IMG/VR virus record: IMGVR_UViG_3300037882_001335 | Coordinates: 1 to 23,017 of that record | Direction: 5' to 3' (one strand) | DNA length: 23,017 bases | From: a virus | Shown here: piece after piece, positions 6,801 to 22,551 of the stretch | Numbering within the stretch: the first letter of the stretch is position 1 | How the letters are laid out: each line of letters starts with the position of its first letter | Translations under genes and position numbers: made by a program | Notes under the pieces: generated by a model | The model's database searches: none | Seen by the model: only the letters and a program-made list of their open reading frames with translations | What the model was told of the DNA's origin: nothing

Positions 6801-9800
6801 CGCTTGCAAGTCCACGCGGAGCTTACTCAGGTCGTTGCCGATGTCCTTCCCTTGCGACTTGCGCTCAGTGATTTCGTCCTGGATGGAGTTAAGCAAATCT
6901 ACCGTCTGCCCGATCATGTCCGAAGTCTCGGCAGGACTCCGCGTCTCGACGTTGCTCAGATTGGTCATCTGCTTCAACTGCTCACCAATCGCCGCCAGCA
7001 ACTTCCGGTGTGCCGCGTTCTTTGCCTTCAACGCCGCCGCCTTGGTCATGCCTTTGGGCGGTGTCATGTGCTGCTTGATCGCCGCCATCAATTCCGTCTG
7101 GGCGTCCGCAATGCGTTGTTGCACGTCCGACCAGCTACCGCCGGATTCCTCGGACGATGTTTTCCGCGCTTCGGTTTCGAGAAACTTCTCCGCTTCGGCC
7201 TCGTCAAACCCTTTCAGATTCTTTGCCTTGATCGCCGCCACACCCGCGCGAATGGCTTCCGTGATGGATTTACCCGCCTTGATTGCTGCCCGCACCGCGC
7301 GCAATGCCGCGTTCAGTGCCCCGCGAGTCATCCAGACAGGTGCGCCCAAGACGCCTTCAAGAGTCTTGGTCTGGTCGAAGTCTGTCCGGGCTATCATCTG
7401 ATCCAGCCAATCCATGAACGACGATTCGCGCGGCATCTCGCCGCCTGTGCCGTAATCCAACTCCGGGACGGGTTTCTTGTTTCCCATCAAATCCTGCTGT
7501 AAGTCCTGCAATTCCGCGCGCTTCGACTTCAACAACTCCGCCTTGCCGAATGTCGTGGCGTCCAGCTTCTTTTGCCATGCCGTTTGATCCTTGGTCGCTT
7601 TGGCTGCGGTCGCCTGCGCTTCTTTGGCGCGTGTTTCCGCGCGCCCCGCCACGGCATTGACCGCGCGCAACAGATTCTTCGGACTGGATAGCTCGCTCGA
7701 AAGTATGCGCTTCTTCGTCTCAATGCCAAAGTTGCCCATGCTCGGCGGTTTGTCGGCAACGGTGAACTCCACGGAGTACGATCGGCCAAGCCGCACGCCG
7801 CGCTTGCCGTCCCCGTCTGAATACCATTCATCTGTCGCCCGGCCCTGTATGCCTGCGTAGAGATTGTCCCCGAACCGCAGCACGAGGTTGATACGGTCGT
7901 CTTTCTTGGATAAAGACGCCTCCATGTTGGTTGCAATCTTGTCCAACGTGGCTTGAATGTCGTCACCGGTGTAAGATTTCTTCGCGCCCGTCATCACGAG
8001 GTTGTCTTTATCCTTCGTGGCTTCCGCCGCTGATTTGGACAATTCTTCCATGTCCGTTGCCAGTGTTTCCGCACTGGCTTTGGCTGACTCTGCTGTGTCG
8101 CGCTCGCGTTTCACGTCTGATACCTGGCGATAAAAGGCGTTTTCCTCCATCGTCAGCTTCCGCACGTCCTCAGTCAGCTTTGCCACATCCAAGGCGCGAG
8201 TGTCGCCGGTCGCCTGCGCCACCATCGAAGCCATTGCGATTGTCAATTCGCTGGCGGGGTCTTCAAACTCGTCACCAAGGAACTGACCTTTCAACGCCTG
8301 CAACGTCATCTTGCCCTTCGTCGCCAGCATGTTGTAAATCGGCGCGTCCATGCTGCGCTCCTGACCGTAGAGCGTGATATTAACTTCGGTGTTCCAGTGC
8401 TTAGGGCTGTGCCGGTTGCCCTGTCGAATGATACGGCCAATGCGCTGATCCATCTTTGCCGCCGTCATCTGCATGGGAGGGTCAAGATGAAACTCCGCGC
8501 TCATGAGCTGTGGCACGTCAACGCCTTCACCGATCTTCTCCGTGCTGCCGATCAAGATTCGCACCGCCCCGGCCCGCACCTTGTCAAACAGTGCGTCCCG
8601 CTTCGTGTCGCTGTTGTGTTCGGTGATGACGCCAATCTCATGCTCTGGCACGCCCATTTTGATCAGCTTGGCGCGGATGTCGTTGTAGATGTTGAACTCG
8701 CCAACCGCGTTGGATTCCATCGCCGCCTCATCCTTCGCGCCGGTGTCCGTGCTTTCCTCGTCGGCCTCAGTCGGTTCAGCCTCCAAATCCACCACCACAG
8801 CGTTATCCTTCGTCGCCTTGGTTGACCCTCCCACAAACCCCATGAGTTTGTCGGTGTTCAACGTGCGGTACATGTCCGCGAACACCATCATGGTCGTGCG
8901 CTTGCTTTTGCCCGCCTGCCATTCCGCGAAGATGTCCCGGACTGCGGTGTTCACCTTGCTGTCAGGATGATCCGCCGCATCCGGGAAGATGCACCGGGGA
9001 TCAAGTGCCGCCGCCGCGCCTGCCCGCATCGTCGCAATCGGCACCCACGAGCTTTCAAATCGCCCCTTTTTGTCCAGTCCGTCCCATTTGCTGCTGATGT
9101 CGCCCACCAAATCAAGCCATCGTTGAAACTCTGGATTGACCGGCGTGACTTTCAACTGTGGCGAGCCGCCCTTAATCTTCGGCACGTCCAAGCCAAGTTC
9201 CTCGTTGCCGATCTTCACAGACATGCCCATGCGCGTCAGTGTGGTCAAAGCCGCGCCGTTCTTGAACTTCGCCATGCGGGTGACTTCCTTGAACTTGTTG
9301 TCCCATCCGAACTCGAAGTTGCTCGTCACTTCCGCGAACGCCGTCGCAAAGCTATCGAACGTCTTGACGCCCATATCTTCCAACAATTTCGGATTGGTGA
9401 CGTGAATCTGTCCCCAAAGCTCGGCAAGTGTGTTGCTGACCGGTGTGCCGGTGAAAAAGAACACGTTGCGCCCATTCGTTCGCTGCTGGACGTTCCGCGC
9501 CTTCACCATCAAATCAATGGCACGCTGGCTGAAACTGCTCGGAACCCCCTTCACGTTGTCGAGTTGCGTCGTGATGGGTATGTTTTTGAAGTTGTGCGAC
9601 TCGTCAATCAGGATGGCATCAATGCCCAAATCCTCCCACGCAAGCCCCTTGTCGTGGTGTTTTGCAATCTGTGACAGGTTCGCATCCAACCGCCTCTTGA
9701 GGGTCTTGATCTTCTTGACGATGTTCGCCACTTCCCGCGCCATGCCGCGCGTAGATTTGTCAAACTCCGCCTGTGCCGCGCCCATCTCAACCAACACCTG

Positions 9801-12800
9801 ACGCAAGCTGTCAATCTGCTCGTCAAAAAACGCCTTAATCGCCGCCTCGCTCGGTCTGATCGCCTTCATCTGCTCGTGCGTGATGACGATGTGATCAAAC
9901 TTGCCCGATGCGATGCGAGAAATCAGTTTCTTGCGGTTCTCGCGCTTGAAATCGTTCTCGGATGGGATCAATACTTTGCTGCCGGGGTAAAGCTGCTCGA
10001 TGGTGCTGCGGAATTGGCCCACGGTCGGCTTTTTCACCACAAACACCGATTTCTTTGCCAGTCCGATGCGCTGTAATTCCCGGCCAAGGATCGTGATTAA
10101 CGCCGTCTTGCCGCTGCCAACACCGTAGGCAAACACCGTGCTACCCTGTTGGATGCCGCGCTGTACGCCGTCGAGGATGTGTTGCTTGCGCCAAAACCAG
10201 TCCGTGACTCCTGGCAGTTTCAACTTTGAACCGTCGAAGTCAGGCGAGACGAAGCTGTTCTTCTTCCGATTCCATTCCCGCTCCAACACGTCCCATACGG
10301 GAAGGTTTTCCTCCCGATACTCTCCGCGCTCACTGTCAAAGCTGCGATAGGGCACGCGGTGTTCGGTCGTGTGTGACCACTTATCGAACTCCGCTTTGAT
10401 CTTGTCAACGATCTGATTGGCGTTCGTGCTGGCTGCGGTGTCCTCGTAAGACTTCCCATCACTGTCAGTTTTCATCACCCGCACGCGCTTCATGTTCAAA
10501 GCCGCGTCCAGCAATTCCATCGCGGATCGTTCGTTCGTGCTGTATTCCACCCGCGCCCGTTCGCTCAATCCGTATCTTCCGCCACGGCCTGTACCAGCAA
10601 CGGCAAATTCTTCTGTGGTCGCCACAAATCGAACTTCGTCGCCGTTCAACCCCATCTCGTCCTTGGCAAATTGGTTGTGGATCGTGGCTGGTATCCAGCG
10701 TCCCTCAATGCCGAACTTCAAGCCGCCAAAGGGATTAGTCGGCGGTATGACCTTTTTCAACGCCTCGACGTTCCGCAGGTATTGAGAATCCTCTTTTGCT
10801 GCGAAAATTGCCTTGGCGTATTTGTCCCGGATGTCGCCCGACAAGTATTCGTTCCGCGTCATCAGCTTGCCGGTGTCCACGTCCAGATAGGCTAGGTCTT
10901 GATCCACCAACTCCTTCACAATCGCCCCGTCATCCATTCCGGTGAGTTGCTTGATGAAATCCAAGTCCATTGCGCCTTTGTATGCCTGGCTGATTGCCAA
11001 TGCCGCTACCGCGTTCTCTGCCGTCTCTGGTGCGCTGTCTGGCTTGCCAACCCGCTTGCTCAACACGTCCGCTTCGTGAACCTTATCAACCGTCTTGGTG
11101 GGGTCGGTCGGGTGCTTCTCGACTGTGGTGTATTCCAATCCCAACACCGTGTAATAGTCCGGGTCGGTTTCCAGATGCTTCAACTTGCGCGTGCTGTCCG
11201 TGATCGTGCCGCCAAGCTGCTTCACCATCGCCTTGTAGCTTTTCGCCAGTTGCTTGCGCCCGGCTTCAATCTCCGCCGCGTCCGTTCCTTCCGTCCGCTC
11301 CATGCGATACTGCTTCTTCAACAGGTCGCGCGTGGCGATGTATGACTTTGCGGTTGCCACCAGTGCAGGCTTGGTGCTGTCCCAAGTTGGTAGATGCTCG
11401 GTGAAGTTGCGGGATTCCACCACCTGACCAGTGCTGTTCAGGTAAAGCGAGTAATCATCGCGCTGTGTGGTCGTCACTTCCGGCTCGGTCGCCTGCGCCA
11501 TGATGTCCTTGGGCATCGCTTCCAATGCCTTGTCCAGCTTGGCTTGAAGGTTGCCCGTGCTAACAACGGTGTATTCGTTCTTCCGATACATGCTGCCCTC
11601 GTGGGCGTGCTTGCCCAACACCATGTCCGGGTTAGCCGCAAAGTATTCGTTCACGAGCATCGGCTCGTCGCCTTCTGCCGCTACATTCACCTGATTCGCC
11701 CAACGCTGTCCCTCAAATGGCTTGCCGTCCGGTCTGCGAAGTATCAACAGGTCGGTGACGACTTCCGTCGCCGCGCTTTCTTTGAAAGCATCGTTTGGTA
11801 ACCGGATCGCCGCCACGAGTTGCCCCTTGCTGGCAAGCAAGTCGCGTTGACGTGGCCGCGCCTCCATCGTGTTCTTTGTCGTGATGGCAATGACCAACCC
11901 GCCGGGACGCACCTTGTCCAGCATCCGCGCGAGAAAGTAATTGTGAAGGTTCAGGTCGGGATATTCCTTGCCCGGACCCACTTCGTGGAATGGCACGTTG
12001 CTGATTGCTAAGTCGAAGTAGCCGTTCGGGAGTTTGGTTTCCTCGAAGCCTTGGATGCGTGTGTCCGCTTCCGGGTAGAGATACGAAAGCAACTTGCCGG
12101 TGATCGTGTCCAGTTCCACCGTCGTCCATTGCGTTGCATTGGCGAGGTTGTCCGGCGCGTAGCCAAGAAACAATCCGCTCCCGGCTCCCGGCTCAAGTGC
12201 TTTGCCGCCTTTGTATCCCAACCGTTCCGCGACTTTCCACGCGAAATCTACCACTTGCTTGCTCGTGTAGTGCGCGTTGACGCTGGATTCTGCCGCTGCG
12301 TTGAACTCGGATTCCGACATCAATTCCCGCAACTGATCGTAGGCTTTGCCGTATTTCTTTTGCCAGCCCTGATCCCACTCGCGCCGCTCCGCTTTGCCGC
12401 TGTTGAATAGTTCCTTGAAGCTGCCCCAGCCCGACCACTGCGCCATTGTCGCAACTTCTTCGGGTTTGGGTGTGCGGGATTCTTTCTCGATTGCGCGAAG
12501 CGTGGTGAGTGCGGCGATGTTCGCCTTGATGCGGGAGACTGCGCCGGTCGGCGCGGGATTCTCCGTCAGGCGGAGATTGCTTCGCTGGATTCCACCGGGA
12601 AGCTGTTCGACTGATTCTGTTCCTCGAACTGATCCAATGCCAGTTCCACCTTCCGACTCTGTTCCGGCGTCAGAAACGGTCGTTCCTTCGCTGTCGGGTG
12701 TTCCGTTAACATCGGCAACAGGCTTTCCATCACCATCGGATCGGCGGCTTTTGGTTTTCCTTCCATCTGCCGAACGTATTGAAGTTTGAACCTCTGCACC

Positions 12801-15800
12801 TTCGCTGCTAGGTGAGTCACCAGTTGATTGCTCTCCGCCAGTTGAATTAGACGCGCCGGGCAACTGTCCTCCATCGCGTCCGTCACCAGCTTTGCGAGTT
12901 GTCGTTGAGGCATCATCTTGTTTTCTACCATACGCCTCGCCACCATCCTTTGCCAGAAATTTATTGCGTGCATCGCGGTAGTCGCTCCGCATGGATTCAT
13001 AATCCTGACTGTATTGCGCTTCCTGTTCTTCTGTGAGTGGGGTTTTCGGCCGCTTCAACTTGTCCCACTTAGAATAGCTGTCGTGATGCTTGCTCTGCGC
13101 TTTTGATTGTTCGTGTGATTGCAACTGCAATTCCGCCGTGAATCCGTCCGCCAAACGAAGCTGGAAATGGATTCCGTGATACAACGCGCTCGTTGGTTTT
13201 CTCAGCATGTCGTCATGGGCGACAACATCAAACTTTTCCGCTATCTGGTTGACAAGAGATGTCATTTCCGCCGGTGTCTCGACTAGCATCCTCGCTCGGA
13301 GATAGTCCGAAACATTGCGCGGTTGAATGACCGTCAACTTCTTTGCGATGCTTCCCGCTTCCTTCGTCACCGCACCGTTTCCGTAAAGAGTGACGCCGGG
13401 TGTTGCATCAACAAACCCTTGTAAAATGGCCTGATATTGCGGTTTTAATTCTTCCGAAATGCGTTGATTTTCATTGGCATCATTGGACTTTTGGTATATC
13501 TTCTTACGTGTGAGTGGATCAACTTCCAAACTTCCAGTAGCTAAAGTCCTGACCGGCCCGGTTAAATTTCCAGACGGTTCTTTTGGTCGCGTCGTGCTGC
13601 TCTCGGATCGCACGCTGGATACAGAGGCTTGGGATTCATCTGGCAAGGATTGGGTGCGCGGTGTGCTGGATGTCTCCGACTTCGCAGGCCCGTTTTCTGA
13701 CGCCACTGCCGCCGACTTGTCTGCGGCTGGCGTCACGCCCTGACCTGTCAGTGTAGCCTTCGCCTTCTTGTAGCGTTCCTGCAACCGTTCCATCTTCGGC
13801 ACGCGCGCCGCCTCTGGCGATACCTGCATGTTGTCATCCAAGTCCGCCAGCTTCACCTTGACCGCATCGGGATTCTTCCGCAACCGCTCGATGTATTGGT
13901 CGTAAGTCTCCGTGTCGCGGCGCGTCAACGCATCCACCGCCGCGCCTACGCTCTGACCAAACTGGCTCGTAATCTCCTGAATCGGCGTGTCTGAATCCTC
14001 CACCACATCATGCAAAAGTGAGATGGTTTGAAGGTGTGGATCATTCGGAAACTTCGCCGCGACACGTTCAATGTGCGCCGTGGTGGGTTCAACTCCATGC
14101 CGCAACTTCCCGCGCAACCGAGATTGCATCAACGTGCGGGCTGCGGCGATGTCGCCCGCCTTGACCGCACCAGTCGCGCCCGCCATGCCTTGCCGCTGAC
14201 TTGGCATCTCACCACCCGGCGCAATCTCATCAAAGATGTCGCGTTTGACCGGCGACGGCGAGGCAGTCTCCACCACGGGAGATTTCAGTTGCCCCGCCGC
14301 CGTGCCCGTTCCTTGGGTGGGAGAAGATTGTTTTGTAACCTCTTTCCACGCCTTGCCACCGACCGGCCAAGACTCAGGATATTTGTGCCCATCAGGAACG
14401 CGCTCACCCTGGATACTCCGCACCGCATCTTCCTCAGTCTTGAAGATACGATCACCGCCCGGCGTTCCGTCAGGTGCAATCTCCGTCACCTTGACCATGC
14501 CAGCATGTTCCGGCTTGGATGAACGAGTTAGAAGCAATGTGCTGCCCTTCTCGTTTGCCTTGAACTCGCGGCGCAATGCCGCGCCAGCCTTGGCTTGCGG
14601 TTGGTTTGGATTCCCGTTTTCATCCAATGTTTTCAGGGGTGAAGCGGCATTTTCGACTGTTTTACCCCCCTGTTTGGATTCCACCCCCTGAGCCGATGGT
14701 ATCGCGCTGGCTTGCAACGTCTTTTGCAAATCCGCAACCATGTTCGCCAAGTCGCCCTTGGTCGCCGGGGCTGCGGCTTGCTCTGGCGTCAGCTTCGGTT
14801 TCAAGTCCTGTTCCGCGCCTGGCAACGCTTCCAACTCCGCGCGCACCTGTGATTGCTTAGAAGCACCCGGCGCGGGAGAAGTCGCTTGCACCGTGCCGGG
14901 TGTTTTTTGTTCAGCCAAACCAGTAGTATTCGGAACGTCAGGGGATCGTGGAGCTTGCGATTGTGAGATTTCGTCTGCAACTTCGTCGAAGATGTCGGGT
15001 TTATCCGCGCGAGTGTTGAAAGACTTCTCGATGCCCTGCATCGTCTCCGCGTTGGCGTCTTGCTCGACGTTGGGTGTTGGTTGCTGCCTGTTGTTGCTGA
15101 TGCCATCAGCCACCTGTGAGAGTGTGGTAACACCGCCACCAATCGCCGCGCCCACGAAACCGGCCATCAACGACTCTTTGAGGCTTTGCTCGAAAGGCTT
15201 GTCCGGGTTGCGCGCAAGGCGTTCGTTCAAATCTTGAAAGGTCTGGTCGGTGTATTCCTCTGCGCCTTCCATGCCCGACTCAATCAGAACCTTTTTAACC
15301 CGGTTCATCACACCGCGAATACCCTCATTACGAAACACGGATTCAACACCCGTATTGCCAAAGCCGCGCGTGACCAGTGCTGTGATCGCGCCGCTCATGA
15401 TCGCGTAAGGCAACGCCTCGGCAGTCGTCTTACCCTCGCCGTAATCCTGCGCCAGTTGCGTGCCGCCGCCGACAACACCGCCGATTCCAGCCGCCACCTT
15501 CAAAGCTGTTGCGGGATTTGCCGCAGCCATGCCCGGTACCATGTAAGTGGGCAACTCAACCACGCCACGGGTCAACGCTTCCGATACCTGATGGGTGGTG
15601 TCATCTCCGAACGTCTGCGCGTCCCGTCGGGAGATGTCCGCTTCGCGTTCGGAGTAGCCTTTCAGCACCGCGCGATTCTGTTGCGCTAGTTCTGAGTCGC
15701 CCAACCCGACCATATCCAGCCCGGCCACCGCGCCCGCGTTGATGACACGCGGCAACATCGCCGCCTTTTGTATCGCACTGTGCGCGGCACTGGCGATGCG

Positions 15801-15923
15801 AACGCCGGTGGGGATGCGTTCAAGTTCTACTGTCGGACGAGGCTTTGTGTCCGGTGCAATCTCGTCAAAAATGTCACCACCGGAAACCTTGTCCGGCGCA
15901 ATCTCGTCGAAGATGTCTGGCAT
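3717..15923 (-). CDS. Giant polyvalent phage protein: HD and RelA/SpoT-like domains, DarB-like methyltransferase-helicase (4068 aa)
   Basis: This one frame takes over half the window. Visible in order: DIFDEIAP motifs (residues 3-11, 17-25); helical, glycine-rich segments (about 40-270); motif copies at 310 and 562; an HD hydrolase (about 600-720, His617, His638-Asp639, Asp694); an alarmone-synthetase-like domain (about 825-960); a disordered linker (about 985-1125); an N6-methyltransferase (about 1128-1400); a superfamily 2 helicase (about 1900-2560); coiled coils; and a long helical region to the end. The methyltransferase-helicase pair is typical of DarB-like antirestriction proteins, which can be carried in virions and protect incoming DNA. 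The start follows three ejection-type genes after a 3-base gap and has no Shine-Dalgarno, so translation is probably coupled. The domain calls are fairly strong; virion location and injection are inferred. Confidence 0.85.
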   Translation of the reverse strand: MPDIFDEIAPDKVSGGDIFDEIAPDTKPRPTVELERIPTGVRIASAAHSAIQKAAMLPRVINAGAVAGLDMVGLGDSELAQQNRAVLKGYSEREADISRRDAQTFGDDTTHQVSEALTRGVVELPTYMVPGMAAANPATALKVAAGIGGVVGGGTQLAQDYGEGKTTAEALPYAIMSGAITALVTRGFGNTGVESVFRNEGIRGVMNRVKKVLIESGMEGAEEYTDQTFQDLNERLARNPDKPFEQSLKESLMAGFVGAAIGGGVTTLSQVADGISNNRQQPTPNVEQDANAETMQGIEKSFNTRADKPDIFDEVADEISQSQAPRSPDVPNTTGLAEQKTPGTVQATSPAPGASKQSQVRAELEALPGAEQDLKPKLTPEQAAAPATKGDLANMVADLQKTLQASAIPSAQGVESKQGGKTVENAASPLKTLDENGNPNQPQAKAGAALRREFKANEKGSTLLLTRSSKPEHAGMVKVTEIAPDGTPGGDRIFKTEEDAVRSIQGERVPDGHKYPESWPVGGKAWKEVTKQSSPTQGTGTAAGQLKSPVVETASPSPVKRDIFDEIAPGGEMPSQRQGMAGATGAVKAGDIAAARTLMQSRLRGKLRHGVEPTTAHIERVAAKFPNDPHLQTISLLHDVVEDSDTPIQEITSQFGQSVGAAVDALTRRDTETYDQYIERLRKNPDAVKVKLADLDDNMQVSPEAARVPKMERLQERYKKAKATLTGQGVTPAADKSAAVASENGPAKSETSSTPRTQSLPDESQASVSSVRSESSTTRPKEPSGNLTGPVRTLATGSLEVDPLTRKKIYQKSNDANENQRISEELKPQYQAILQGFVDATPGVTLYGNGAVTKEAGSIAKKLTVIQPRNVSDYLRARMLVETPAEMTSLVNQIAEKFDVVAHDDMLRKPTSALYHGIHFQLRLADGFTAELQLQSHEQSKAQSKHHDSYSKWDKLKRPKTPLTEEQEAQYSQDYESMRSDYRDARNKFLAKDGGEAYGRKQDDASTTTRKAGDGRDGGQLPGASNSTGGEQSTGDSPSSEGAEVQTSIRSADGRKTKSRRSDGDGKPVADVNGTPDSEGTTVSDAGTESEGGTGIGSVRGTESVEQLPGGIQRSNLRLTENPAPTGAVSRIKANIAALTTLRAIEKESRTPKPEEVATMAQWSGWGSFKELFNSGKAERREWDQGWQKKYGKAYDQLRELMSESEFNAAAESSVNAHYTSKQVVDFAWKVAERLGYKGGKALEPGAGSGLFLGYAPDNLANATQWTTVELDTITGKLLSYLYPEADTRIQGFEETKLPNGYFDLAISNVPFHEVGPGKEYPDLNLHNYFLARMLDKVRPGGLVIAITTKNTMEARPRQRDLLASKGQLVAAIRLPNDAFKESAATEVVTDLLILRRPDGKPFEGQRWANQVNVAAEGDEPMLVNEYFAANPDMVLGKHAHEGSMYRKNEYTVVSTGNLQAKLDKALEAMPKDIMAQATEPEVTTTQRDDYSLYLNSTGQVVESRNFTEHLPTWDSTKPALVATAKSYIATRDLLKKQYRMERTEGTDAAEIEAGRKQLAKSYKAMVKQLGGTITDSTRKLKHLETDPDYYTVLGLEYTTVEKHPTDPTKTVDKVHEADVLSKRVGKPDSAPETAENAVAALAISQAYKGAMDLDFIKQLTGMDDGAIVKELVDQDLAYLDVDTGKLMTRNEYLSGDIRDKYAKAIFAAKEDSQYLRNVEALKKVIPPTNPFGGLKFGIEGRWIPATIHNQFAKDEMGLNGDEVRFVATTEEFAVAGTGRGGRYGLSERARVEYSTNERSAMELLDAALNMKRVRVMKTDSDGKSYEDTAASTNANQIVDKIKAEFDKWSHTTEHRVPYRSFDSERGEYREENLPVWDVLEREWNRKKNSFVSPDFDGSKLKLPGVTDWFWRKQHILDGVQRGIQQGSTVFAYGVGSGKTALITILGRELQRIGLAKKSVFVVKKPTVGQFRSTIEQLYPGSKVLIPSENDFKRENRKKLISRIASGKFDHIVITHEQMKAIRPSEAAIKAFFDEQIDSLRQVLVEMGAAQAEFDKSTRGMAREVANIVKKIKTLKRRLDANLSQIAKHHDKGLAWEDLGIDAILIDESHNFKNIPITTQLDNVKGVPSSFSQRAIDLMVKARNVQQRTNGRNVFFFTGTPVSNTLAELWGQIHVTNPKLLEDMGVKTFDSFATAFAEVTSNFEFGWDNKFKEVTRMAKFKNGAALTTLTRMGMSVKIGNEELGLDVPKIKGGSPQLKVTPVNPEFQRWLDLVGDISSKWDGLDKKGRFESSWVPIATMRAGAAAALDPRCIFPDAADHPDSKVNTAVRDIFAEWQAGKSKRTTMMVFADMYRTLNTDKLMGFVGGSTKATKDNAVVVDLEAEPTEADEESTDTGAKDEAAMESNAVGEFNIYNDIRAKLIKMGVPEHEIGVITEHNSDTKRDALFDKVRAGAVRILIGSTEKIGEGVDVPQLMSAEFHLDPPMQMTAAKMDQRIGRIIRQGNRHSPKHWNTEVNITLYGQERSMDAPIYNMLATKGKMTLQALKGQFLGDEFEDPASELTIAMASMVAQATGDTRALDVAKLTEDVRKLTMEENAFYRQVSDVKRERDTAESAKASAETLATDMEELSKSAAEATKDKDNLVMTGAKKSYTGDDIQATLDKIATNMEASLSKKDDRINLVLRFGDNLYAGIQGRATDEWYSDGDGKRGVRLGRSYSVEFTVADKPPSMGNFGIETKKRILSSELSSPKNLLRAVNAVAGRAETRAKEAQATAAKATKDQTAWQKKLDATTFGKAELLKSKRAELQDLQQDLMGNKKPVPELDYGTGGEMPRESSFMDWLDQMIARTDFDQTKTLEGVLGAPVWMTRGALNAALRAVRAAIKAGKSITEAIRAGVAAIKAKNLKGFDEAEAEKFLETEARKTSSEESGGSWSDVQQRIADAQTELMAAIKQHMTPPKGMTKAAALKAKNAAHRKLLAAIGEQLKQMTNLSNVETRSPAETSDMIGQTVDLLNSIQDEITERKSQGKDIGNDLSKLRVDLQARLMMLKGWADDQTDEAAQNVKPQRTPQETPETRARFMELESATDLTRSTAGEFWQKIKLGLRYLTSPIPELPLTGERAEKSALFRRGYRLFAVENNAVRLEAAKRIEAVVEPLTKLGRKPADNAVLKRYYALGEAIQRAKMDEGKKKRLQEMQFNLEKQLNKDPFNLFRRLVLYRDLWWRGTFLKNEQGEPITLPMGLTVDDVAGELRKLTGAITEHPDGLAITEALRRHYALTEELQKSILAHGEIIPESLRNPLYFPHHIVDSWTGRVDRVRPTTEEDFRRYLIAPLGSGKLIQTDYMKAMYLHTADVLAHNGRVDLVDKYWKPYNISEQLRKQHGKDWNKPWNVPPGYKLFTPFKKLPLRMDYILSREVLAEKLGVLFNDGDLRTQMAGKVLNVKPEDLHAAMVAGEKIQWALPEEIADALNGIARRESAATNPGLGHAMGLPFRMANNFWKKTKLFAPWNWIRYEYGNLSTDAVDKVLAADPVTAKYLSRAARELWNADTGEQSPEFKAAQREGVFDTITAGEAGELTKLPQFKAFLTPGELKMENIRHALSAPMRGSKFREGTFRYAKFLADVERLRGGKEAVFAGAFHGDIQALGEDVDGLRPILEGDELIYAKAAEISLKTYGDYNSLGVVGQWLRAYAVPFWSWQDVNFRYHANQLRNIADGIRGVKGATSRQAALRYAGVRVVTTLIAVGIAKELWNQFGGVALGLWDDDDDLEASLSEADRRRGHILVGKDAKGQAMVVYTPSALSDVAEWTGGVNMKRLFMEYVRGQITMEQFISDYAKQLPTDFGNKMAQSAGPLIKAPYELASGKATFPDVFDQRTIPDSDKGWRLVGTLTDDRAVNVLRSAFDGDYMSQPAAEQLQQIILQVRRRDPEQWAYFEAREDASDWKEAKTGKRFEFGSYNAPEAQALRNFRKSIYRGDVANAERFYKSLLDYGYTADRLDASIRNQHPLADLNVAERADYARALNDRQKRELELATKYYSRIKAMDGREKQLFPKKGQQPRPNPELLKQIVQEQAR
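4524..6926 (-). other. C-terminal helical region of the large-polyvalent-protein type
   Basis: Residues about 3000-3800 are long helical segments with many Trp and Tyr. Near 3700-3750 there is VPFWSWQDVNF, then a hydrophobic helix (VVTTLIAVGIAKELW), then an acidic DDDDD stretch. From memory this resembles the C-terminal domain called LPD38 in giant phage polyvalent proteins. The hydrophobic helix might touch a membrane. No enzymatic motif is seen here. Confidence 0.5.
8244..10226 (-). other. Superfamily 2 (SNF2-like) helicase domain within the giant protein
   Basis: Walker A is GVGSGKT (Lys1939), motif II is DESH (2107-2110), motif III is TGTPVSNT (from 2158) and motif VI is QRIGRIIRQGN (2493-2503). 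All key residues are present, so the ATPase is likely active. A long helical insertion lies between motifs Ia and II. Coiled-coil segments follow. Confidence 0.85.
11724..12542 (-). other. DarB-type N6-adenine methyltransferase domain within the giant protein
   Basis: The region opens with RIKANIAALTTLRAIE and QWSGWGSFKELF, the lead-in typical of DarB-like and SNF2-linked phage methylases. It then has HYTSKQVV, motif I LEPGAGSG (Glu1244) and motif IV NVPF (1309-1312), in place of the usual NPPY/NPPF. NVPF is common in this subfamily. It lies about 500 residues before the helicase, the order found in P1 DarB-like proteins. Confidence 0.75.
13044..14126 (-). other. RelA/SpoT-like HD hydrolase plus synthetase-like domains within the giant protein
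   Basis: The HD part has His617, His638-Asp639 in LLHDVVED and Asp694 in KLADLDDN, the set seen in RelA/SpoT hydrolases, including the ED pair (Glu642, Asp643) typical of active ones. The second part (about 825-960) resembles the alarmone synthetase fold: KEAGSIAKK (Lys854, Ser858, Lys861-862), VSDYLRARMLV (Asp873, Arg878), a YHGIH loop (Tyr915, His919), AELQLQS (Glu931) and a trailing HHDSY. The order matches that of long RelA/SpoT proteins. The HD call is firm; the synthetase call is good but from memory of the motifs. Activity could be ppGpp metabolism or a toxin-antitoxin-like pair. Confidence 0.7.
14214..14240 (-). repeat. Fourth DIFDEIAP motif copy (residues 562-570)
   Basis: The sequence reads DIFDEIAPG and lies in a linker just before the HD domain, so the copies occur between folded segments. 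Confidence 0.8.
14970..14996 (-). repeat. Third, diverged DIFDE motif copy (residues 310-318)
   Basis: The sequence reads DIFDEVADE, preceded by KP as the first copy is preceded by MP. It lies in a low-complexity linker after the glycine-rich segments. Confidence 0.7.
15849..15917 (-). repeat. Two N-terminal DIFDEIAPD motif copies in the giant protein
   Basis: Residues 3-11 and 17-25 both read DIFDEIAPD, and the DNA is also nearly repeated. With copies at residues 310 and 562 this is a four-times repeated short linear motif. Its place at the extreme N-terminus suggests a docking or packaging tag. Confidence 0.85.
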
Positions 15924-15926
15924 GAT

Positions 15927-16838
15927 TCAGAATGAGTAACCACGTTCAGCCGCCAATTTACGCGCTTCTTTCTTGTTCCCGCCTGCTTCCTTCAACAACT
16001 CCGCCGCCGTCTCCGCGTCCAACGGCTTGCCAGATTCACGCATCGGACGCGCGGGTATCTCGGTTTGCTTCGGCTCGGTGATCTGGTTGAAATCTCCAAT
16101 CTTCCGCTTTGTCGTCACCTTGCGCGCGGGTTGACCGGGCACGGCTGGCTTGCCGGGCACGGCTGGCGTGTCCTTGCCAAACCACCGGGATTTCGCGGGC
16201 TGCGCGGGCACTTCGTCTTGTGCTGGAATTTCCGGGTAATCCGTCGTTGTCGTCTCGTAAGAGTCGTTCGCCTGTGCCGCTGCCGATGGATTCTGCTTCC
16301 ACTCGCCATTTATACGATACATCGCGCCGGGTGCGACGGTCGGCACTTTAGCTGCATTGTCCGCCTCATTGTTGGCGAACTGCGTAATGTTGCCAGTAGT
16401 CCGCGCAATCTGATCTGTCGGCGCGCCATTTCGCGCCATCGTGGATTGGCCCGCCGCTTGGAATACTTTTACCACATCTGCCCCGGAAATACCCCAAGCC
16501 ATTGCTGCATCGGCAATATCCTGGCTTAACACCGCGTCATCTTGCGGAGCTTTCCCGCTCATCATGGCGTGAATCCGCGCGCCGCCACCGTCTCGGATCC
16601 GAGCGAAAGCTTCATTCCGCTGCTGTTGCGCTTGTGCGTCTGCGCCGTGCTTCGCCGTCTGCGCGTCGTAATTGCCAGCCTGCGCGCGACTCACCATCGT
16701 ATCGTTATCAATCTTCCGGCGTTCCTGATCCAGCCGGTAACGCAACTGCGGAGCGCGTAGCATGTGTTGAGCAACCATGTCCATGCTTTGCTCAATCGGA
16801 CTGGTGATGCTGTTGTAGTCGGTAGGTCGGCTTGGCAT
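15927..16838 (-). CDS. Ejection-type internal virion protein (303 aa)
   Basis: The protein is helical and rich in Ala, Gln and Asp in its first two thirds, with an N-terminal region of many Gln and Arg residues, then a Pro-rich linker with a tandem PAVPG repeat, and a Lys- and Glu-rich C-terminus. There are no catalytic motifs. Placement between another ejection-like gene and the giant gene, with 3-base gaps on both sides, and its composition suggest an internal virion or DNA-ejection protein. No Shine-Dalgarno precedes the ATG at 16836-16838, so it is probably translated by coupling. The identity is inferred from context, not from a recognised domain. Confidence 0.6.
   Translation of the reverse strand: MPSRPTDYNSITSPIEQSMDMVAQHMLRAPQLRYRLDQERRKIDNDTMVSRAQAGNYDAQTAKHGADAQAQQQRNEAFARIRDGGGARIHAMMSGKAPQDDAVLSQDIADAAMAWGISGADVVKVFQAAGQSTMARNGAPTDQIARTTGNITQFANNEADNAAKVPTVAPGAMYRINGEWKQNPSAAAQANDSYETTTTDYPEIPAQDEVPAQPAKSRWFGKDTPAVPGKPAVPGQPARKVTTKRKIGDFNQITEPKQTEIPARPMRESGKPLDAETAAELLKEAGGNKKEARKLAAERGYSF
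16135..16170 (-). repeat. Tandem 18-base repeat encoding PAVPG units
   Basis: Two 18-base copies, 16135-16152 and 16153-16170, differ at a single base. They encode a Pro-rich linker (TPAVPGKPAVPGQPA) in the ejection-type protein. Confidence 0.85.
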
Positions 16839-16841
16839 AAT

Positions 16842-17579
16842 TCACGAAAGGTTGGAATTTACGTAGGTGATGTTTGGGTCGTAGTCGTAGCTATCAACCT
16901 TTGGATTATAGCCACCACCACCACCGCCGCCGCCACTGCTCGATGCTGTGGAGGCATACGCACCCAAGCCGCGCCCAGCCGCGCCTAGCAGACTGCCAGC
17001 CGCGCTCCATCCGTCGCCTGCGCGCAAGGCGTCCCGTTGAGCCGCTTCGCCGATCTGCGCCTCGCGTTGAGATTCAAACCCGATGTCTCCAATCTCTTGA
17101 CTTGCCCGACGTTGCGCGATGTTCCGCGCCAAGCCCCAATCTTGGAACGCCCCAGCCTTGGCTTGTGCCGCGCCAATGATGCGATTCCATGCGTTTGAGA
17201 TTGCCGATTGATTTGCCGTTGCCGCCGCAAACGGTGTTGAAACTGTTCGGGAGACGGTCTTTTGCTGTGTCGGTTGGGCTGCCGGTGCTGTAATGCGGTT
17301 GTATTCCGCCGCTCGCGCCGCTGCCGCTTGGTCTATCGCTGGCTTGGCCTTGTCTGCGCCGGCATCCGCCGTCTCGCGCGCAACAATCGCACGCGCCTTT
17401 TGCTCCTTTAGGCCGAGGTTGTAAAGCGTGTTGGCGCGTTCTCGATCCTGCTGCTTTTGAACCTCGTCCTGCGCCTTCATTGACGCCGCAGTGCCGGCGA
17501 GTGCCGCCGCCAAAGCCACCCACTCTACCCATCCGTCTTGGGATCGCTTCTTCCGGTATGCCTTGATGTCTATTTTCAT
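16842..17579 (-). CDS. Ejection-type protein with N-terminal hydrophobic helix and polyglycine linker (245 aa)
   Basis: A basic N-terminus (IKAYRKKRSQD) is followed by a possible membrane helix (WVEWVALAAALAGTAASM, about residues 18-35) and a long Ala/Gln-rich helical region. Near the C-terminus there is a Ser-Gly tract with eight glycines. This layout resembles small podovirus internal proteins such as T7 gp14, which contribute to the channel for DNA entry. The start overlaps the stop of the upstream gene (17576-17579). The similarity is one of architecture only, and I see no residue motif that would prove it. Confidence 0.6.
   Translation of the reverse strand: MKIDIKAYRKKRSQDGWVEWVALAAALAGTAASMKAQDEVQKQQDRERANTLYNLGLKEQKARAIVARETADAGADKAKPAIDQAAAARAAEYNRITAPAAQPTQQKTVSRTVSTPFAAATANQSAISNAWNRIIGAAQAKAGAFQDWGLARNIAQRRASQEIGDIGFESQREAQIGEAAQRDALRAGDGWSAAGSLLGAAGRGLGAYASTASSSGGGGGGGGYNPKVDSYDYDPNITYVNSNLS
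16912..16935 (-). repeat. Glycine-codon microsatellite
   Basis: Eight consecutive glycine codons (CCA/CCG on the plus strand) form a short trinucleotide repeat in the linker near the end of the ejection-type gene. Such tracts can change length by slippage. Confidence 0.8.
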
Positions 17580-18172
17580 CGGTTCACCATCCTTTGAGTT
17601 TCACCGCCCCAACCAAACAGCGGCGCGACATTCGGATCGTATTGCCGCGCCTCGTTGTTGGCAATGAAGTTGCCCGTCCACTCTTTGAAGAAATTCCCGA
17701 TCGGAGCGTAACTGGTCGGCTTTTGGTACGCCTGAGCCGTGCGAAGCGCAAGGTTTGCCGCCGCGCCGGGGTCTGCGCTGGCTTGTAGCTGCGCCGTGAG
17801 GTTGCTCCGCTGTCCTTCCACGGTTTGCCGCAATTCGTTCGCCTGAGCCTGTCCAGCATCGGACACGTTGCGTAGCTGCTGCCGGCGTTCATCTTCGAGG
17901 TTGGCGTTTTTCTCCGCGTCAACGCTCCCACCCATCAAACCGGATCGCGCCAGCGAATACACAAGGTTGCGCTTGGTGTTGCCAAACTCCTTTTCCAGCT
18001 TCGGCTTTGCGTACGCCTCGTAGTCCTTGGCGCGCGAGTCGTAAAAGTTGTCGTCGAATCCAGCAAACTCCTTATCAATCGCCTCGTTGCCGATGGCGAT
18101 GTTTTTAAGGCGCGTTTCCTCAAGCGCGCGTTGCTGTTCGGCTGCTTTATTGTTGTTCCCGCACATTCCCAT
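17576..18172 (-). CDS. Ejection-type internal virion protein, small (198 aa)
   Basis: The protein begins MGMCGNNNKAAEQQ and is mainly helical, with acidic and amphipathic stretches (KDYEAYAKPKLEKEF, RRQQLRNVSDAGQ). It ends in a Trp-rich part (EWTGNFIANN, FGWGGE). A short Met-Cys start before a helical body is also seen in T7 gp14. The ATG is preceded by a strong AAGGAGGG inside the end of the upstream gene. It overlaps the next gene by ATGA. The role is inferred from position and composition; it is the first of three probable ejection proteins. Confidence 0.6.
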   Translation of the reverse strand: MGMCGNNNKAAEQQRALEETRLKNIAIGNEAIDKEFAGFDDNFYDSRAKDYEAYAKPKLEKEFGNTKRNLVYSLARSGLMGGSVDAEKNANLEDERRQQLRNVSDAGQAQANELRQTVEGQRSNLTAQLQASADPGAAANLALRTAQAYQKPTSYAPIGNFFKEWTGNFIANNEARQYDPNVAPLFGWGGETQRMVNR

Positions 18173-18173
18173 A

Positions 18174-18599
18174 TTATTCGCCCTCCTTCAAAGGTATGTC
18201 GTAATCGAACGTCCGCGCCGCGCTCATCGCCCGCATGTGATCGAAGCCACCGCACAGAAACGCTACCGCGTTCTCCATCTCGGCGTACTGGCTTTTCAAC
18301 ACATCACTCGAAAGGCGCGTCCGGTAATCATCTGATTTCGCCATTGCGTTCGCGTCCAACCATGCGTTTGCCCCGGTAACAATCATCGGGTAAAGCCTGG
18401 GCGCGTTATCCCGCACCCATCCGGGCACTGCGAAGTTGCCGATGATGTTCAACATGCCGGAAGCCAGCACCACATCCTTGATGCTGCCCGGTTCGTCTAT
18501 GATGTCGTCCATCAGCGAGCAAAAGGAGTCGTAATCACAAAGCCACACCGCCGCCTCGCGGTTGCCTTTGGTTATCGTTAATGCTCGTTCAAATGTCAT
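18174..18599 (-). CDS. Hypothetical late protein (141 aa)
   Basis: The ATG at 18597-18599 overlaps the stop of the nozzle-like gene (ATGA), and its stop lies one base before the next ATG. The product starts MTFERALTITKGNREA and is mostly helical, with a conserved-looking middle (VPGWVRDNAPRLYPM). It contains the acidic stretch CSLMDDIIDEPGS and several Trp and Cys. It has no signal peptide. No family is recognised. Its place between a nozzle-like gene and the ejection-type genes suggests a virion-assembly or minor tail role, but this is only context. Confidence 0.6.
   Translation of the reverse strand: MTFERALTITKGNREAAVWLCDYDSFCSLMDDIIDEPGSIKDVVLASGMLNIIGNFAVPGWVRDNAPRLYPMIVTGANAWLDANAMAKSDDYRTRLSSDVLKSQYAEMENAVAFLCGGFDHMRAMSAARTFDYDIPLKEGE
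18181..18188 (-). promoter_or_regulatory. Strong ribosome binding site for the first ejection-type gene
   Basis: AAGGAGGG on the minus strand lies 8 bases before the ATG at 18172. It is the strongest Shine-Dalgarno in the late operon, where several other starts have none, so ejection proteins may be made at a higher rate. Confidence 0.7.
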
Positions 18600-20032
18600 C
18601 TTGCGTCCCCACCGTTAAAGTGAAAGGCGAACGTGCTGAATCTCGCGTATTCCGCACCCGTTGTCACGCCCCGAACCTTGAAGAAGGCACCTGACATTGT
18701 GGACGGAATAACGCCCTTGCCAAAGCTGCTATCTGAACTCCGATAAATCTCTTTCAACACGCCGGATGTTGCATCCATGCCGAACGACAACGCCCAACCG
18801 CCTTCAAGCCCGACATCCATTCCAGAGCCAAGCTTCTTGGTCGCTGCGCTGCGCGCATCCAGCCAAGGCGTTTCCCATGAGCAGACGCTCGTGTCGTATG
18901 TCGCGTTGCTGGTTCCGCCATACAGGTAGATTTTACCGTCTGTGCTGCGGACATAGACTTGCCCTGCTCTCTCTACAAATTTTTCAGGGGTAAAGAACTC
19001 GGCAAAGATAAATGTTGTCGCGCCGGGATTTGTGTCTTGAACAATATCAACCGTGGCGGTTGTTGCGTCTGCAATGAAAGACCCATCTTCTCCTGTTATG
19101 TTCGTTGAACCGCTAACGAAAGTGAATGTTGCGCCAGCCGCGATTTCTTTCGCGCCGCGAGTGATCGAATACCGCCTGCCGACGGTTAATCCGGTAAAAA
19201 ATGCCTGCCACTGTGTTGCAAACCCGGCGGAATAATTGGCGGATGTCGCGGCAAAAGGGATGGTCGGGTCATACGTTGACCATGCTGTAATGCCGCTGCT
19301 CGGGAAGTAGCTGAACACGTAAATCAAATCCCCGACCGCCAGCCAATAACGGTTGCTGATAGGCTCGACGATGCTTGCCATCTGACTTACGCCTTCGCTT
19401 AACAGCCGCGCCTGAATCAGCGAATCAATCGGCGTGCCCAAATCCGCCGGGGTAAGATTGCCGCTGCTGTCCCGCACGCGCAAACTACGGACACCGCTGT
19501 CCGAACAAAACAAGACATCCGTATCGCCTATGCTGCGAACACTGTCACCGTTCACAGTGCCGATGTTCTCCAACGTCTGAGGCACGGAGTAGTTGGCTGG
19601 GGCAGGATCGACCGCAACGACCTGAATCGACCGCCGCGCCAACACCGCAAGTTTGCCCTGATAGATTGCCGCCGCAAGAATGTCGTCGGAGAATCCATAT
19701 TCCGATGATAAATCCATGAAGCCGTTACCCGCCGCTTTTAGTTCGTTGAATACGGTTGGGCGATTGATCGCGCTAAAGTAAAAAAACGCGCTATCGCCAG
19801 TCAGATAGTTCTTTTTCTTGTAAGTCAGTCCGACGGTCGGGAATTGCCCCGTCAAATACCCAGCACCAAGGGTTTCGAATTGGCCGTTCTCATTGAACAC
19901 GAGTCCGACGGTGTATTTATCGTCGGCAATCCATGATCCGCCGAATGTAAAGCGCGTTACCTGGGCCACTGACGCCACCGCAGCAACGCCGCCGCCAAAC
20001 TGCGATGCTGTTGTTATGAGTTGCGTGGCCAT
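18596..20032 (-). CDS. Tail nozzle-like protein, C-terminal half (478 aa)
   Basis: The middle of the protein resembles the beta-propeller part of phage tail nozzle and DNA-stabilisation proteins (P22 gp10 / T7 gp12 type): YQGKLAVLARRSIQVVAV near residues 124-141, a DVLFCSDSGVRSLRVRD block, then DLGTPIDSLIQ. There is a beta-rich insertion (about 285-345) with many Thr and Ala residues. The start lies one base after the end of the preceding gene and has no Shine-Dalgarno (TGATATG), so it depends on re-initiation. Together the two genes look like one nozzle protein cut in two. The family match is by remembered patterns; the position in the tail is inferred. Confidence 0.65.
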   Translation of the reverse strand: MATQLITTASQFGGGVAAVASVAQVTRFTFGGSWIADDKYTVGLVFNENGQFETLGAGYLTGQFPTVGLTYKKKNYLTGDSAFFYFSAINRPTVFNELKAAGNGFMDLSSEYGFSDDILAAAIYQGKLAVLARRSIQVVAVDPAPANYSVPQTLENIGTVNGDSVRSIGDTDVLFCSDSGVRSLRVRDSSGNLTPADLGTPIDSLIQARLLSEGVSQMASIVEPISNRYWLAVGDLIYVFSYFPSSGITAWSTYDPTIPFAATSANYSAGFATQWQAFFTGLTVGRRYSITRGAKEIAAGATFTFVSGSTNITGEDGSFIADATTATVDIVQDTNPGATTFIFAEFFTPEKFVERAGQVYVRSTDGKIYLYGGTSNATYDTSVCSWETPWLDARSAATKKLGSGMDVGLEGGWALSFGMDATSGVLKEIYRSSDSSFGKGVIPSTMSGAFFKVRGVTTGAEYARFSTFAFHFNGGDAR

Positions 20033-20033
20033 A

Positions 20034-22076
20034 TCAGTTGAATGTGATCGTGAAAAACGCGGTGATTGGATCGGATTCCGACACCGTTCCGAGGTTGTCT
20101 GTCACTACGAGTTTGAACCTGGCCGAATAGGTTCCTGGTGGATAGGCATAGGTGTTGTTCCAGTGAAACTTTGTGTAGTCCTGATTCAAGTTGGCTGAAT
20201 AGATGTTCGGATGTCCGTCAATCTTCACCCATGAATAACCGTAGGGCGCACTTCCAAAATACAACGCCGATGTAACCAGTTCGGTATAGACGTTGTTGCC
20301 TTGGAAGCCTGCGCCGGATGCCGTGTACGCGCTCAGGATAACTTGAGCCGTGCCTGTTTGTGGGACGTTGTTGATTGTGACACCGCTTCCTGTTCCTCCC
20401 GCTCCTACTGTTATCGTCACAAACGCATTCAATGGGGCGTCTGCGCTGGACGTCACGTATTTTGACACATAGACGACCGCCCCGACCGCCACCGCTGAAT
20501 AATCGTTTCCCCCGCTGTACGCGGAAATTGAATCCGCCAAGGCCGAGCAAAACAATTCAAGCGTGGCATAACTGGCTGATGCCAACCCGCCAGCCATCGC
20601 CCCTTTTACGTCCACGCCATCAATGTTGAATTGCACAAGCGTGAATCCAGTTCCAGCCACAACAAACGCCGCAAACAAGCTGCCAATGCACATCTGCCCC
20701 GCCACCGTCACCGAGATGTCCGATCCGTTGATGCCGGTATTGGCAACCGGCGCAGTGATAAAAACATCTTCCCCGATGGATTCCGCCGTGAACCCATGAG
20801 AACCGGCGTTGATGTTGGAAACAACATTTTCCGCCGTCGTTTCGGAATCTTTCTCCCAATTCACGGACGCGCTCAACAGCTCGAACGTGCCCGCAAGGAT
20901 GCTGGTGATCTTGTTCGTGTCCAATCCTCCCGCCATCGGGTTTGATCCGATAGTAAGATGATGCGTACCGGATGCGGTAATCGCGTAAGCGTTGCCCACT
21001 GTTCCCGTCGTCCGCGCCGTCAATACCAGCGTGTTCGCGCCTGTATCGTATGCGCCAGCCTTCACCGTCGCATGTGGCCCTGTGGCGATGTAAGCCACGC
21101 CGGGGATTCCTGTGTAATTGATTGCGTCGGCAAGATTCTGCATGGCCGCGTCACCGTTCACGGTGTTGCCTATCAAAACATCATCCGCCAGCGAAATAGC
21201 TGTTTTCCATGTGTATGTCCTGCCGTTGATCGTGATGGAGCTTCCGTTTGCCGGGGCTGTGCCGTCATTAGTGAGTGTGCAAGTCGCGCTCGCGTTGGTC
21301 TTGCCAGCGATGATTCTGAACTTGGCTTTTGCGCCGGAGCCCGCGCTGCCGGGGGATGCCTCTGTCTGGATCGACGAAACCAGCGTGCCTGAGCTTCCGC
21401 CCTGCAATGTCTTGGTAATGACCGCCTCAAAGTCTGTCGCCACCGGGCCGGATACGTCCGCATAGACGTTAGTTGCCGTGTAAGCCGCTGTGAAGTTGTC
21501 CGATCTGTCATTCACCATGCGCGCGAAGTCTGCGGCCAATAGTGCGTTAGTTGAAAGGTGAGCCAGTCGCAATCCGTCTGTGAAATCCCGGTCAAGCGTG
21601 CCGTTGTAGTAACCAAACCGGTCGCCATCAGCAAAAGTAGCTAGAGCAAAAATGTTGCCCGCATACGTCCAAGACGCCCGAACATCTGTCATTGCGTGCT
21701 TGGTCTTGTCGTAAGTCACGCCGTCTATCACCGCCGGGTGTTGTAGCTGCTGATACGTCACGCCGCTCGGCATGGCAGAGGCAAGGACGGGTTGTGATAG
21801 GGTTGGAGATGTCCCAAACGCCAGTGCGCTACCGAACACCGTCAGTCCAACCGCCGTCGCCTGCATCCCGAACGTCCGCACACCCGCTGTCAATTCCGCG
21901 CCTGTCTCCGTAATGGCAACATTCGCATACAGCGGAAACGCCTTGCGCTTCTCAATCTCCCCGCCGTTTGTCAGGTGTCCGTTGCTCAACTCCACGAGAG
22001 AGCCGGGCTGGGGCGCAAGCGAGAATCGCCGCACATCCAACCCCTTCGGAAACCCATCTAATACGAGATAGCTCAT
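20034..22076 (-). CDS. Tail nozzle-like protein, N-terminal half with adhesin-like insertions (680 aa)
   Basis: The N-terminus (SNGHLTNGGEIEKRKAF, residues 31-47) matches the GG.I.KR pattern at the start of many phage nozzle and tail tubular proteins. The middle is unusual: three degenerate beta domains of about 95 residues. The first, about 265-380, has ITINGRTYTWKT, a NLADAIN motif and ANTLVLTARTTGTVGNAY, a pattern common in phage tail and sheath-associated adhesive repeats. Two more follow, about 395-455 and 470-560. The last 80 residues look like a PKD/Ig-type domain (GTYSARFKLVVTDNLGTVSESD). The protein therefore seems to combine a structural start with surface-exposed decoration. It is joined to the next gene with a one-base gap. 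Confidence 0.65.
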   Translation of the reverse strand: MSYLVLDGFPKGLDVRRFSLAPQPGSLVELSNGHLTNGGEIEKRKAFPLYANVAITETGAELTAGVRTFGMQATAVGLTVFGSALAFGTSPTLSQPVLASAMPSGVTYQQLQHPAVIDGVTYDKTKHAMTDVRASWTYAGNIFALATFADGDRFGYYNGTLDRDFTDGLRLAHLSTNALLAADFARMVNDRSDNFTAAYTATNVYADVSGPVATDFEAVITKTLQGGSSGTLVSSIQTEASPGSAGSGAKAKFRIIAGKTNASATCTLTNDGTAPANGSSITINGRTYTWKTAISLADDVLIGNTVNGDAAMQNLADAINYTGIPGVAYIATGPHATVKAGAYDTGANTLVLTARTTGTVGNAYAITASGTHHLTIGSNPMAGGLDTNKITSILAGTFELLSASVNWEKDSETTAENVVSNINAGSHGFTAESIGEDVFITAPVANTGINGSDISVTVAGQMCIGSLFAAFVVAGTGFTLVQFNIDGVDVKGAMAGGLASASYATLELFCSALADSISAYSGGNDYSAVAVGAVVYVSKYVTSSADAPLNAFVTITVGAGGTGSGVTINNVPQTGTAQVILSAYTASGAGFQGNNVYTELVTSALYFGSAPYGYSWVKIDGHPNIYSANLNQDYTKFHWNNTYAYPPGTYSARFKLVVTDNLGTVSESDPITAFFTITFN

Positions 22077-22080
22077 AGGA

Positions 22081-22551
22081 TCACACTGACCACACTTGCC
22101 AGAACTCGCCCGACTTCTCGAAGTCCCTGGGCGTGATATGCTCAGGTTCTTCCGCGCCGAACAATCTTCTCACCCCCGCAACGCGATACCAAATCGTTGC
22201 CGCTGCCGAACAGACATTTCCCTTTGGCGAACTATCGCCCTTGCCGCCTAATGCCGTGTTCAAAATGCCTTTCCAGTCGTAAGGCTGTCCGCGCATGGCT
22301 TCAAAGGCGACACCCATCCGGCCCATATTGAGCGTTGTCCTCGATCGCAGCACCCGGCAAAGGTTCTCCGTCCGCAGTGGGTATTCATTTGTCCCAAGTC
22401 CATCGCGCGATGCGTAGGACACTCCGCCGCCCTTGTACACCTCGACATGCGAGACTCCGCCGGATGTCATCCACGCGATTGCCCGCCCGAACACGCTGCT
22501 GGGCGCATATAGCAGGCAATCACCGGGCATTAGATCGCGCGGATCAATCAT
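22081..22551 (-). CDS. NlpC/P60-like permuted papain-fold peptidase (156 aa)
   Basis: The fold pattern is that of the circularly permuted NlpC/P60 group (YiiX/YebB-like): MPGDCLLY at residues 8-15, catalytic His in SHVEVY (His35), and the nucleophile Cys in VCSAAA (Cys114). It ends ITPRDFEKSGEFWQV, also typical. Such enzymes cleave peptides or acyl bonds, and in phage tails they can open the peptidoglycan layer during entry. It lies directly before the nozzle genes, with 3- and 4-base gaps, which fits a tail-associated hydrolase. There is no signal peptide. The family call is good; the substrate is not known. Confidence 0.75.
   Translation of the reverse strand: MIDPRDLMPGDCLLYAPSSVFGRAIAWMTSGGVSHVEVYKGGGVSYASRDGLGTNEYPLRTENLCRVLRSRTTLNMGRMGVAFEAMRGQPYDWKGILNTALGGKGDSSPKGNVCSAAATIWYRVAGVRRLFGAEEPEHITPRDFEKSGEFWQVWSV

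Follow-up and report, generated by a model that had tools for sequence, protein, structure and literature searches.

The window analysed here is the whole of the IMG/VR virus record IMGVR_UViG_3300037882_001335 (23,017 bases). Its largest gene, which lies on the minus strand and is open across 4068 codons, encodes a giant polyvalent protein of the DarB type that carries both an HD hydrolase domain and a RelA/SpoT-superfamily pyrophosphokinase (synthetase) domain. With moderate confidence, we propose that this protein combines a constant HD hydrolase with an exchangeable pyrophosphokinase cassette, both of which would act on the host after entry. The pattern that suggests this arrangement is seen in the relatives encoded on contigs L001 and L002, where the hydrolase is retained and another domain occupies the place of the synthetase.

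The chain begins with an N-terminal region, which is followed in order by the HD domain, a linker, the synthetase domain, a methylase-helicase core and a C-terminal region. Residues 600-960 correspond exactly to window positions 13044-14126. The parts of the gene are as follows.

3717-15923, minus strand: gene for the giant DarB-type polyvalent protein, an unbroken open reading frame (ORF) of 4068 amino acids, stop codon included in the coordinates
13734-14150, minus strand: predicted HD hydrolase domain, Aph1/(p)ppApp-hydrolase-like, residues ~592-730 (profiles, PDB matches, model)
13503-13733, minus strand: Ser/Thr/Pro-rich linker, residues 731-807 (composition)
12963-13502, minus strand: predicted RelA/SpoT-superfamily pyrophosphokinase domain, residues 808-987 (PF04607, alignment, model, fold matches, leave-one-out profile)
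7944-12545, minus strand: DNA methylase and SWI2/SNF2-type helicase core of the DarB type, residues ~1127-2660 (phrog_10089; Helicase_C, 24.7 bits)
3720-7427, minus strand: C-terminal region, residues 2833-4068 (70% identity to L001)

A predicted hydrolase and a predicted pyrophosphokinase in one chain

A whole-protein Pfam scan missed both domains, and fragments of the protein were scanned instead. As a guard against circularity, leave-one-out profiles were built from relatives only, with the window sequence excluded, and 2000 shuffles of each domain served as the control. The HD profile scored 127.6 bits in the whole protein, against 9.4 bits for the best shuffle, and the synthetase profile scored 42.7 bits, against 8.8. 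These margins, together with confident structural models, establish that both domains are real, as an earlier sequence-only reading of this DNA had supposed, and all eleven residues named in that reading (H617, H638, D639, E642, D643, D694, K854, S858, D873, Y915 and E931) lie where it placed them. The alignments behind the models contain relatives, so that model and profile scores reflect the whole family and not the window protein alone; the single-sequence evidence consists of a PF04607 match for the synthetase and a phmmer match to the (p)ppApp hydrolase 7smg for the HD domain.

In the fragment scan, the HD part matched TIGR00691 (E 3e-9), and it also matched phrog_990 (E 7e-29). A single-sequence phmmer search of the PDB found 7smg with an E value of 2.4e-11, and a profile search of the same database found it with 2.3e-47, ahead of the next chain at 4e-22. 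An AlphaFold model of residues 596-740 reached a predicted local distance difference test (pLDDT) value of 92, and its best fold match in the PDB was again 7smg, with a template modelling (TM) score of 0.80, a root-mean-square deviation of 1.8 and about 26% identity in the structural alignment. The catalytic set H617, H638-D639, E642-D643 and D694 is in place. Across 25 viral HD domains, H617, H638, D639, E642, K691 and D694 are invariant and D643 is nearly so. The fold and the metal-binding and catalytic residues of an Aph1-type (p)ppApp hydrolase or small alarmone hydrolase (SAH) are present in the domain, which is predicted from its sequence and model to be an enzyme of this Aph1-like, SAH type.

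For the synthetase, a fragment matched PF04607 with 27.8 bits (E 3.3e-6), where the gathering cut-off is 27. Other searches with the single sequence found nothing certain in the PDB (phmmer) or in viral contigs, and their best E values were 2 among phages and 0.05 among plasmids; an alignment of two synthetase sequences returned no match in viral or genome contigs. A profile search of the PDB found SaEAS (8vx3) at 5.8e-34 and Tas1 at 7e-17. The two domains were modelled separately, a joint alignment having been dropped when the synthetase rows aligned onto the HD domain. The AlphaFold model of residues 800-990, made on an alignment of 15 domains, had a pLDDT of 89.5 and a predicted TM score of 0.84. 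Its TM-scores were highest with SaEAS 8vx3 (0.67), and reached 0.63 with CapRel and 0.61 with Tas1. Each of the 50 structures in the PDB that matched it best is an alarmone synthetase, a Rel enzyme, Tas1 or CapRel, and so an alarmone or tRNA pyrophosphokinase; this confirms the synthetase fold proposed earlier for residues 825-960.

Residues K854, S858, K862, D873, Y915, E931, Q933 and H947 are kept in the window domain. Among the 15 synthetase domains, D873, E931 and H947 are invariant, K854 is nearly so, and S858, K862, Y915 and Q933 are common. D873 aligns with D121 of SaEAS, and the D121A mutant present in the crystal sequence is inactive. The domain is best described as a predicted Apk/Tas1/SaEAS-like pyrophosphokinase of the RelA/SpoT superfamily, and by sequence and model it is likely to be catalytically active. 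A separate, weak match links region 12984-13526 (minus strand) with the C-terminus of XopAD-family proteins (NCBIfam, E 0.007), which agrees with the Rel-like domains reported in XopAD.

The nearest solved relatives also bear on the probable substrate. SaEAS makes both (p)ppApp and (p)ppGpp, Tas1 makes ppApp, and the hydrolase is nearest to a (p)ppApp hydrolase. Because of these relatives, ppApp or tRNA is a likelier target than ppGpp.

A proposed exchangeable slot and competing explanations

The only close relatives that the giant protein proved to have are encoded on L001 and L002, two contigs with near-identical proteins. They are 62-70% identical to the window protein across the core and C-terminus and 51% identical in the HD domain. 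After the HD domain, at the place where the window protein has its synthetase, they carry a PF06414 Zeta_toxin domain (80.2 bits), and they have no synthetase. The synthetase slot thus shows a cassette pattern, with a Zeta-toxin-like kinase in the slot of the relative, which suggests that the HD domain is the constant part of the chain and the synthetase its exchangeable part. When about 100 giant ORFs were examined, the HD domain was present only in the window and in L001/L002, and synthetase domains were present in the window, L060, L084 and L014.

Several further observations concern the giant genes in general. One frame (L095:1268-13039) shares a linker (55% identity) and a short C-terminal piece (82%) with the window protein, and neither its HD nor its synthetase domain was matched there; the two similar stretches flank parts that are unmatched or only 26% identical, a mosaic that points to recombination within the giant gene. 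Zeta-toxin domains above the cut-off were also detected in large frames (2574 to 6921 amino acids) of L024, L044, L061 and L050, which are the DarB-type phage records G011, G026, G038 and G030, and the occurrence of Zeta domains in phage polyvalent proteins looks recurrent. L024 was considered as a second case of HD plus Zeta and rejected, its 12-bit HD_4 match having no support from the HD profile. A giant phage frame of 5015 amino acids (L060:2582-17626) matches the inorganic pyrophosphatase family PF18823 with 186.8 bits and has, in the same chain, a RelA/SpoT synthetase that scores 38.8 bits, and BFVD also holds large phage proteins with the synthetase fold, some of them named ART-PolyVal-like and DdrB-like. 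A scan of genome contigs with the helicase region of this clade found no relatives.

Under the proposed explanation, the polyvalent protein would be carried in the virion and pass into the host along with the DNA, and two separate effector cassettes would follow its N-terminal region and precede its methylase-helicase core. Soon after entry, the synthetase would most likely use ATP as the donor to pyrophosphorylate adenine nucleotides or tRNA, and its product may slow host growth or translation. The hydrolase would most likely remove the 3'-pyrophosphate from ppApp-like nucleotides or tRNA ends, and could undo both a host defence of the toxSAS/CapRel type and the product of the neighbouring synthetase. 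A hydrolase of phage SSU5 that acts in this way against FaRel2 is a precedent for the former (PMC11559606). Host toxSAS and CapRel act against phages through tRNA pyrophosphorylation; if the proposal is true, a hydrolase that enters with the DNA could act before phage gene expression, as an early counter-defence. In addition, a Zeta kinase in the synthetase's place behind a kept hydrolase suggests that the toxin cassettes on ejected proteins can be exchanged. A more tentative idea, which we hold to be less likely than not, is that a single virion protein delivers one enzyme that makes pyrophosphate-tagged adenine nucleotides or tRNA and another that removes them. The remover would serve as a fixed shield against host toxSAS immunity, and the maker would occupy a toxin slot open to exchange between a pyrophosphokinase and a Zeta kinase, so that the ejected phage protein would diversify like a polymorphic toxin.

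Several points weigh against the proposal of a constant hydrolase with an exchangeable cassette. The constancy of the HD domain rests on two cases, the two contigs of the nearest relative being nearly identical. That relative is without a synthetase, and either state may be the ancestral one. The combination of HD and synthetase in one chain has a single example, the window itself, against about 100 other giant ORFs examined. Lastly, Val852 replaces the Arg of the RxK element (RxKxxxSxxxK motif) in the synthetase.

The main rival explanation is a dedicated toxin-antidote pair in one chain, in which the HD domain would exist to hydrolyse the product of the synthetase, as Aph1 does for Apk2 when the two are encoded by separate genes, and would either shield the producing cell or limit the effect in time. 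Both domains are closest to enzymes of ppApp systems, and the Apk2/iapK/aph1 modules provide a precedent. The HD gene has a synthetase-domain gene as its direct neighbour in 10 of 80 viral HD loci, and nine of these ten synthetase genes are on the same strand and upstream of the HD gene, with 61-529 bp between the stop-to-stop frames. These pairs match the Apk2-IapK-Aph1 modules of temperate phages. On a Streptomyces plasmid (L101:2695-4612), genes for a synthetase domain and for an HD hydrolase stand in that order with one small gene between them, as a free-standing counterpart of the window pair. Phage phiN3 has a hydrolase and, according to BFVD, a RelA/SpoT protein, but no synthetase gene is annotated beside its hydrolase in the stretches examined.

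However, L001 and L002 keep the HD domain without any synthetase, and in the HD tree the window domain groups with that of L001 (support 97/91) and then with L102, L103 and L170, which are stand-alone phage hydrolases, whereas all 11 of the 11 HD domains near a synthetase fall in a different group. The toxin with a built-in antidote suggested by the sequence-only reading is still a fair reading of the domain pair, because toxin-plus-hydrolase gene pairs of both families occur in phages, but the same observations on L001 and on the stand-alone hydrolases make a dedicated pair rather unlikely.

We consider it improbable that the synthetase is a decayed, inactive remnant beside an HD domain that works alone as a counter-defence enzyme. 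This alternative draws on Val852, on the long branch of the window row in the synthetase tree (2.36) and on the presence of another domain at that place in the relative. Even so, the eight kept residues listed above and the confident model speak against a remnant. In the alignment, 7 of the 13 domains with a letter at the RxK position have Arg and 6, the window included, do not, which leaves the Arg missing in 5 of the 12 others; Tas1, a known ppApp synthetase, also appears to be without it in the printed profile alignment. Because this Arg is absent from other domains and apparently from Tas1, Val852 is no proof of inactivity, and the Arg was not treated as defining.

The giant protein is not a long RelA/SpoT enzyme, and a phage-borne version of such an enzyme, acting at infection to set the level of (p)ppGpp in the host, is very improbable: the HD-then-synthetase order, the largely complete motif sets and the TIGR00691 match of the HD domain recall these enzymes, but a Ser/Thr/Pro-rich linker joins the domains in place of their helical core, no TGS/ACT region was matched after the synthetase in Pfam or NCBIfam scans (the DarB core follows instead), both domains fall outside SpoT and RelA in the trees, and the best relatives are ppApp enzymes. 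In the HD tree, a branch with support 98/88 separates the SpoT domain from the window group, and in the synthetase tree, which is weakly resolved, RelA/SpoT is set apart with L061 (97/91); each tree holds few RelA/SpoT rows. Given the linker, the missing regulatory region and the trees, the shared domain order noted in the sequence-only reading stands, but it does not demonstrate a common origin.

The DarB-type carrier and its neighbours

Residues 956-2910 match phrog_10089, 'DarB-like antirestriction', with 1149.6 bits, and the core is about 30-31% identical to DarB-like proteins of many phages and plasmids. The chain combines a methylase-SWI2/SNF2 dyad with further, unrelated effector domains, as phage polyvalent proteins of the DarB type do. 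The last 1160 residues had no match in named phages. Other features, on the minus strand throughout, are listed here.

15891-15917 and 15849-15875, minus strand: DIFDEIAPD peptide, two N-terminal copies at residues 3-11 and 17-25 (sequence repeat)
14976-14996 and 14214-14240, minus strand: inner copies of DIFDE(I/V)A, the second directly before the HD domain
15927-18172, minus strand: three upstream genes of 303, 245 and 198 amino acids (homology)
18596-22076, minus strand: probable tail/packaged-DNA-stabilisation proteins of 680 and 478 amino acids (homology)

The genes for the 198- and 245-amino-acid proteins have homologues in L001 in the same order, and a homologue of the former in Rhizobium phage RHph_N65 lies two genes before a 'putative injection protein'. 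The match of the 680-amino-acid protein to a 'packaged DNA stabilization protein' of a Microcystis phage is partial, and both it and the 478-amino-acid protein match parts of one RHph_N65 protein. DarB of phage P1, the archetype, sits in the virion head and acts in cis to protect DNA (PMC5512222). Because of the DarB-like core and the gene position, it is a reasonable inference that the giant protein is packaged and injected with the DNA.

The DIFDE(I/V)A peptide occurs four times in the giant protein, twice at the N-terminus and twice at inner module borders, and other giants have comparable repeats (PFDDLPD three times in L001, NPY(L/M) three times in L095 and DPFDVA three times in L065). 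These repeats are possibly a packaging, docking or processing tag. A 156-amino-acid protein encoded at 22081-22551 (minus strand) matches phrog_1128 and, weakly, a YaeF-like permuted papain fold; the name of phrog_1128 (enoyl-CoA hydratase-like) looks wrong.

Comparison with known systems

Polyvalent phage proteins with RelA/SpoT domains were described in 2017, and alarmone synthesis was predicted for them (Iyer et al. 2017, PMC5512222). They resemble the window protein in being large and multi-domain, with a methylase-SWI2/SNF2 core and RelA/SpoT nucleotidyltransferase domains, but no HD hydrolase was found in the main text of that report, which mentions Zeta kinases only for polyvalent proteins of conjugative elements and for MuF fusions.

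The Apk2-IapK-Aph1 modules (PMC12226406, PMC11699363) share both enzyme families with the window protein. In them, too, the toxin is a synthetase attached to a structural protein of the phage, and a ppApp hydrolase, Aph1, reverses it and so neutralises Apk2. Those modules consist of separate genes, with toxin preceding immunity and an N-terminal MuF carrier, whereas the window protein is one chain with the hydrolase first and a DarB-type carrier. No IapK-like partner was identified for the window synthetase.

SaEAS (8vx3) and Tas1/Apk1 (6ox6) head the profile matches of the synthetase domain and rank among its best matches by structure. However, they are exported by Sec or by the type VI secretion system, have no hydrolase in the chain and are only 14-18% identical to the window domain. 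The 7smg enzyme, from Bacteroides caccae, has the same fold and hydrolase motif set as the HD domain but is stand-alone and about 26% identical. PaSpo, the SAH of phage SSU5, reverses the modification that the toxSAS FaRel2 makes on tRNA (PMC11559606); it is presumed to share the hydrolase motif set of the HD domain and is also stand-alone. The CapRel and toxSAS tRNA pyrophosphokinases share the superfamily fold (TM 0.63 for CapRel), and the product of FaRel2 is removed by a phage SAH, but they belong to defence or toxin-antitoxin systems whose antitoxin is a protein, and they are not polyvalent proteins.

In the papers searched, no polyvalent chain turned up that unites a hydrolase with a synthetase and has a slot that can also hold a Zeta kinase. 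Both RelA/SpoT domains in polyvalent phage proteins and the pairing of toxin and hydrolase genes are already known; what appears to be new is the presence of the hydrolase in the same chain as the synthetase, together with a swappable slot.
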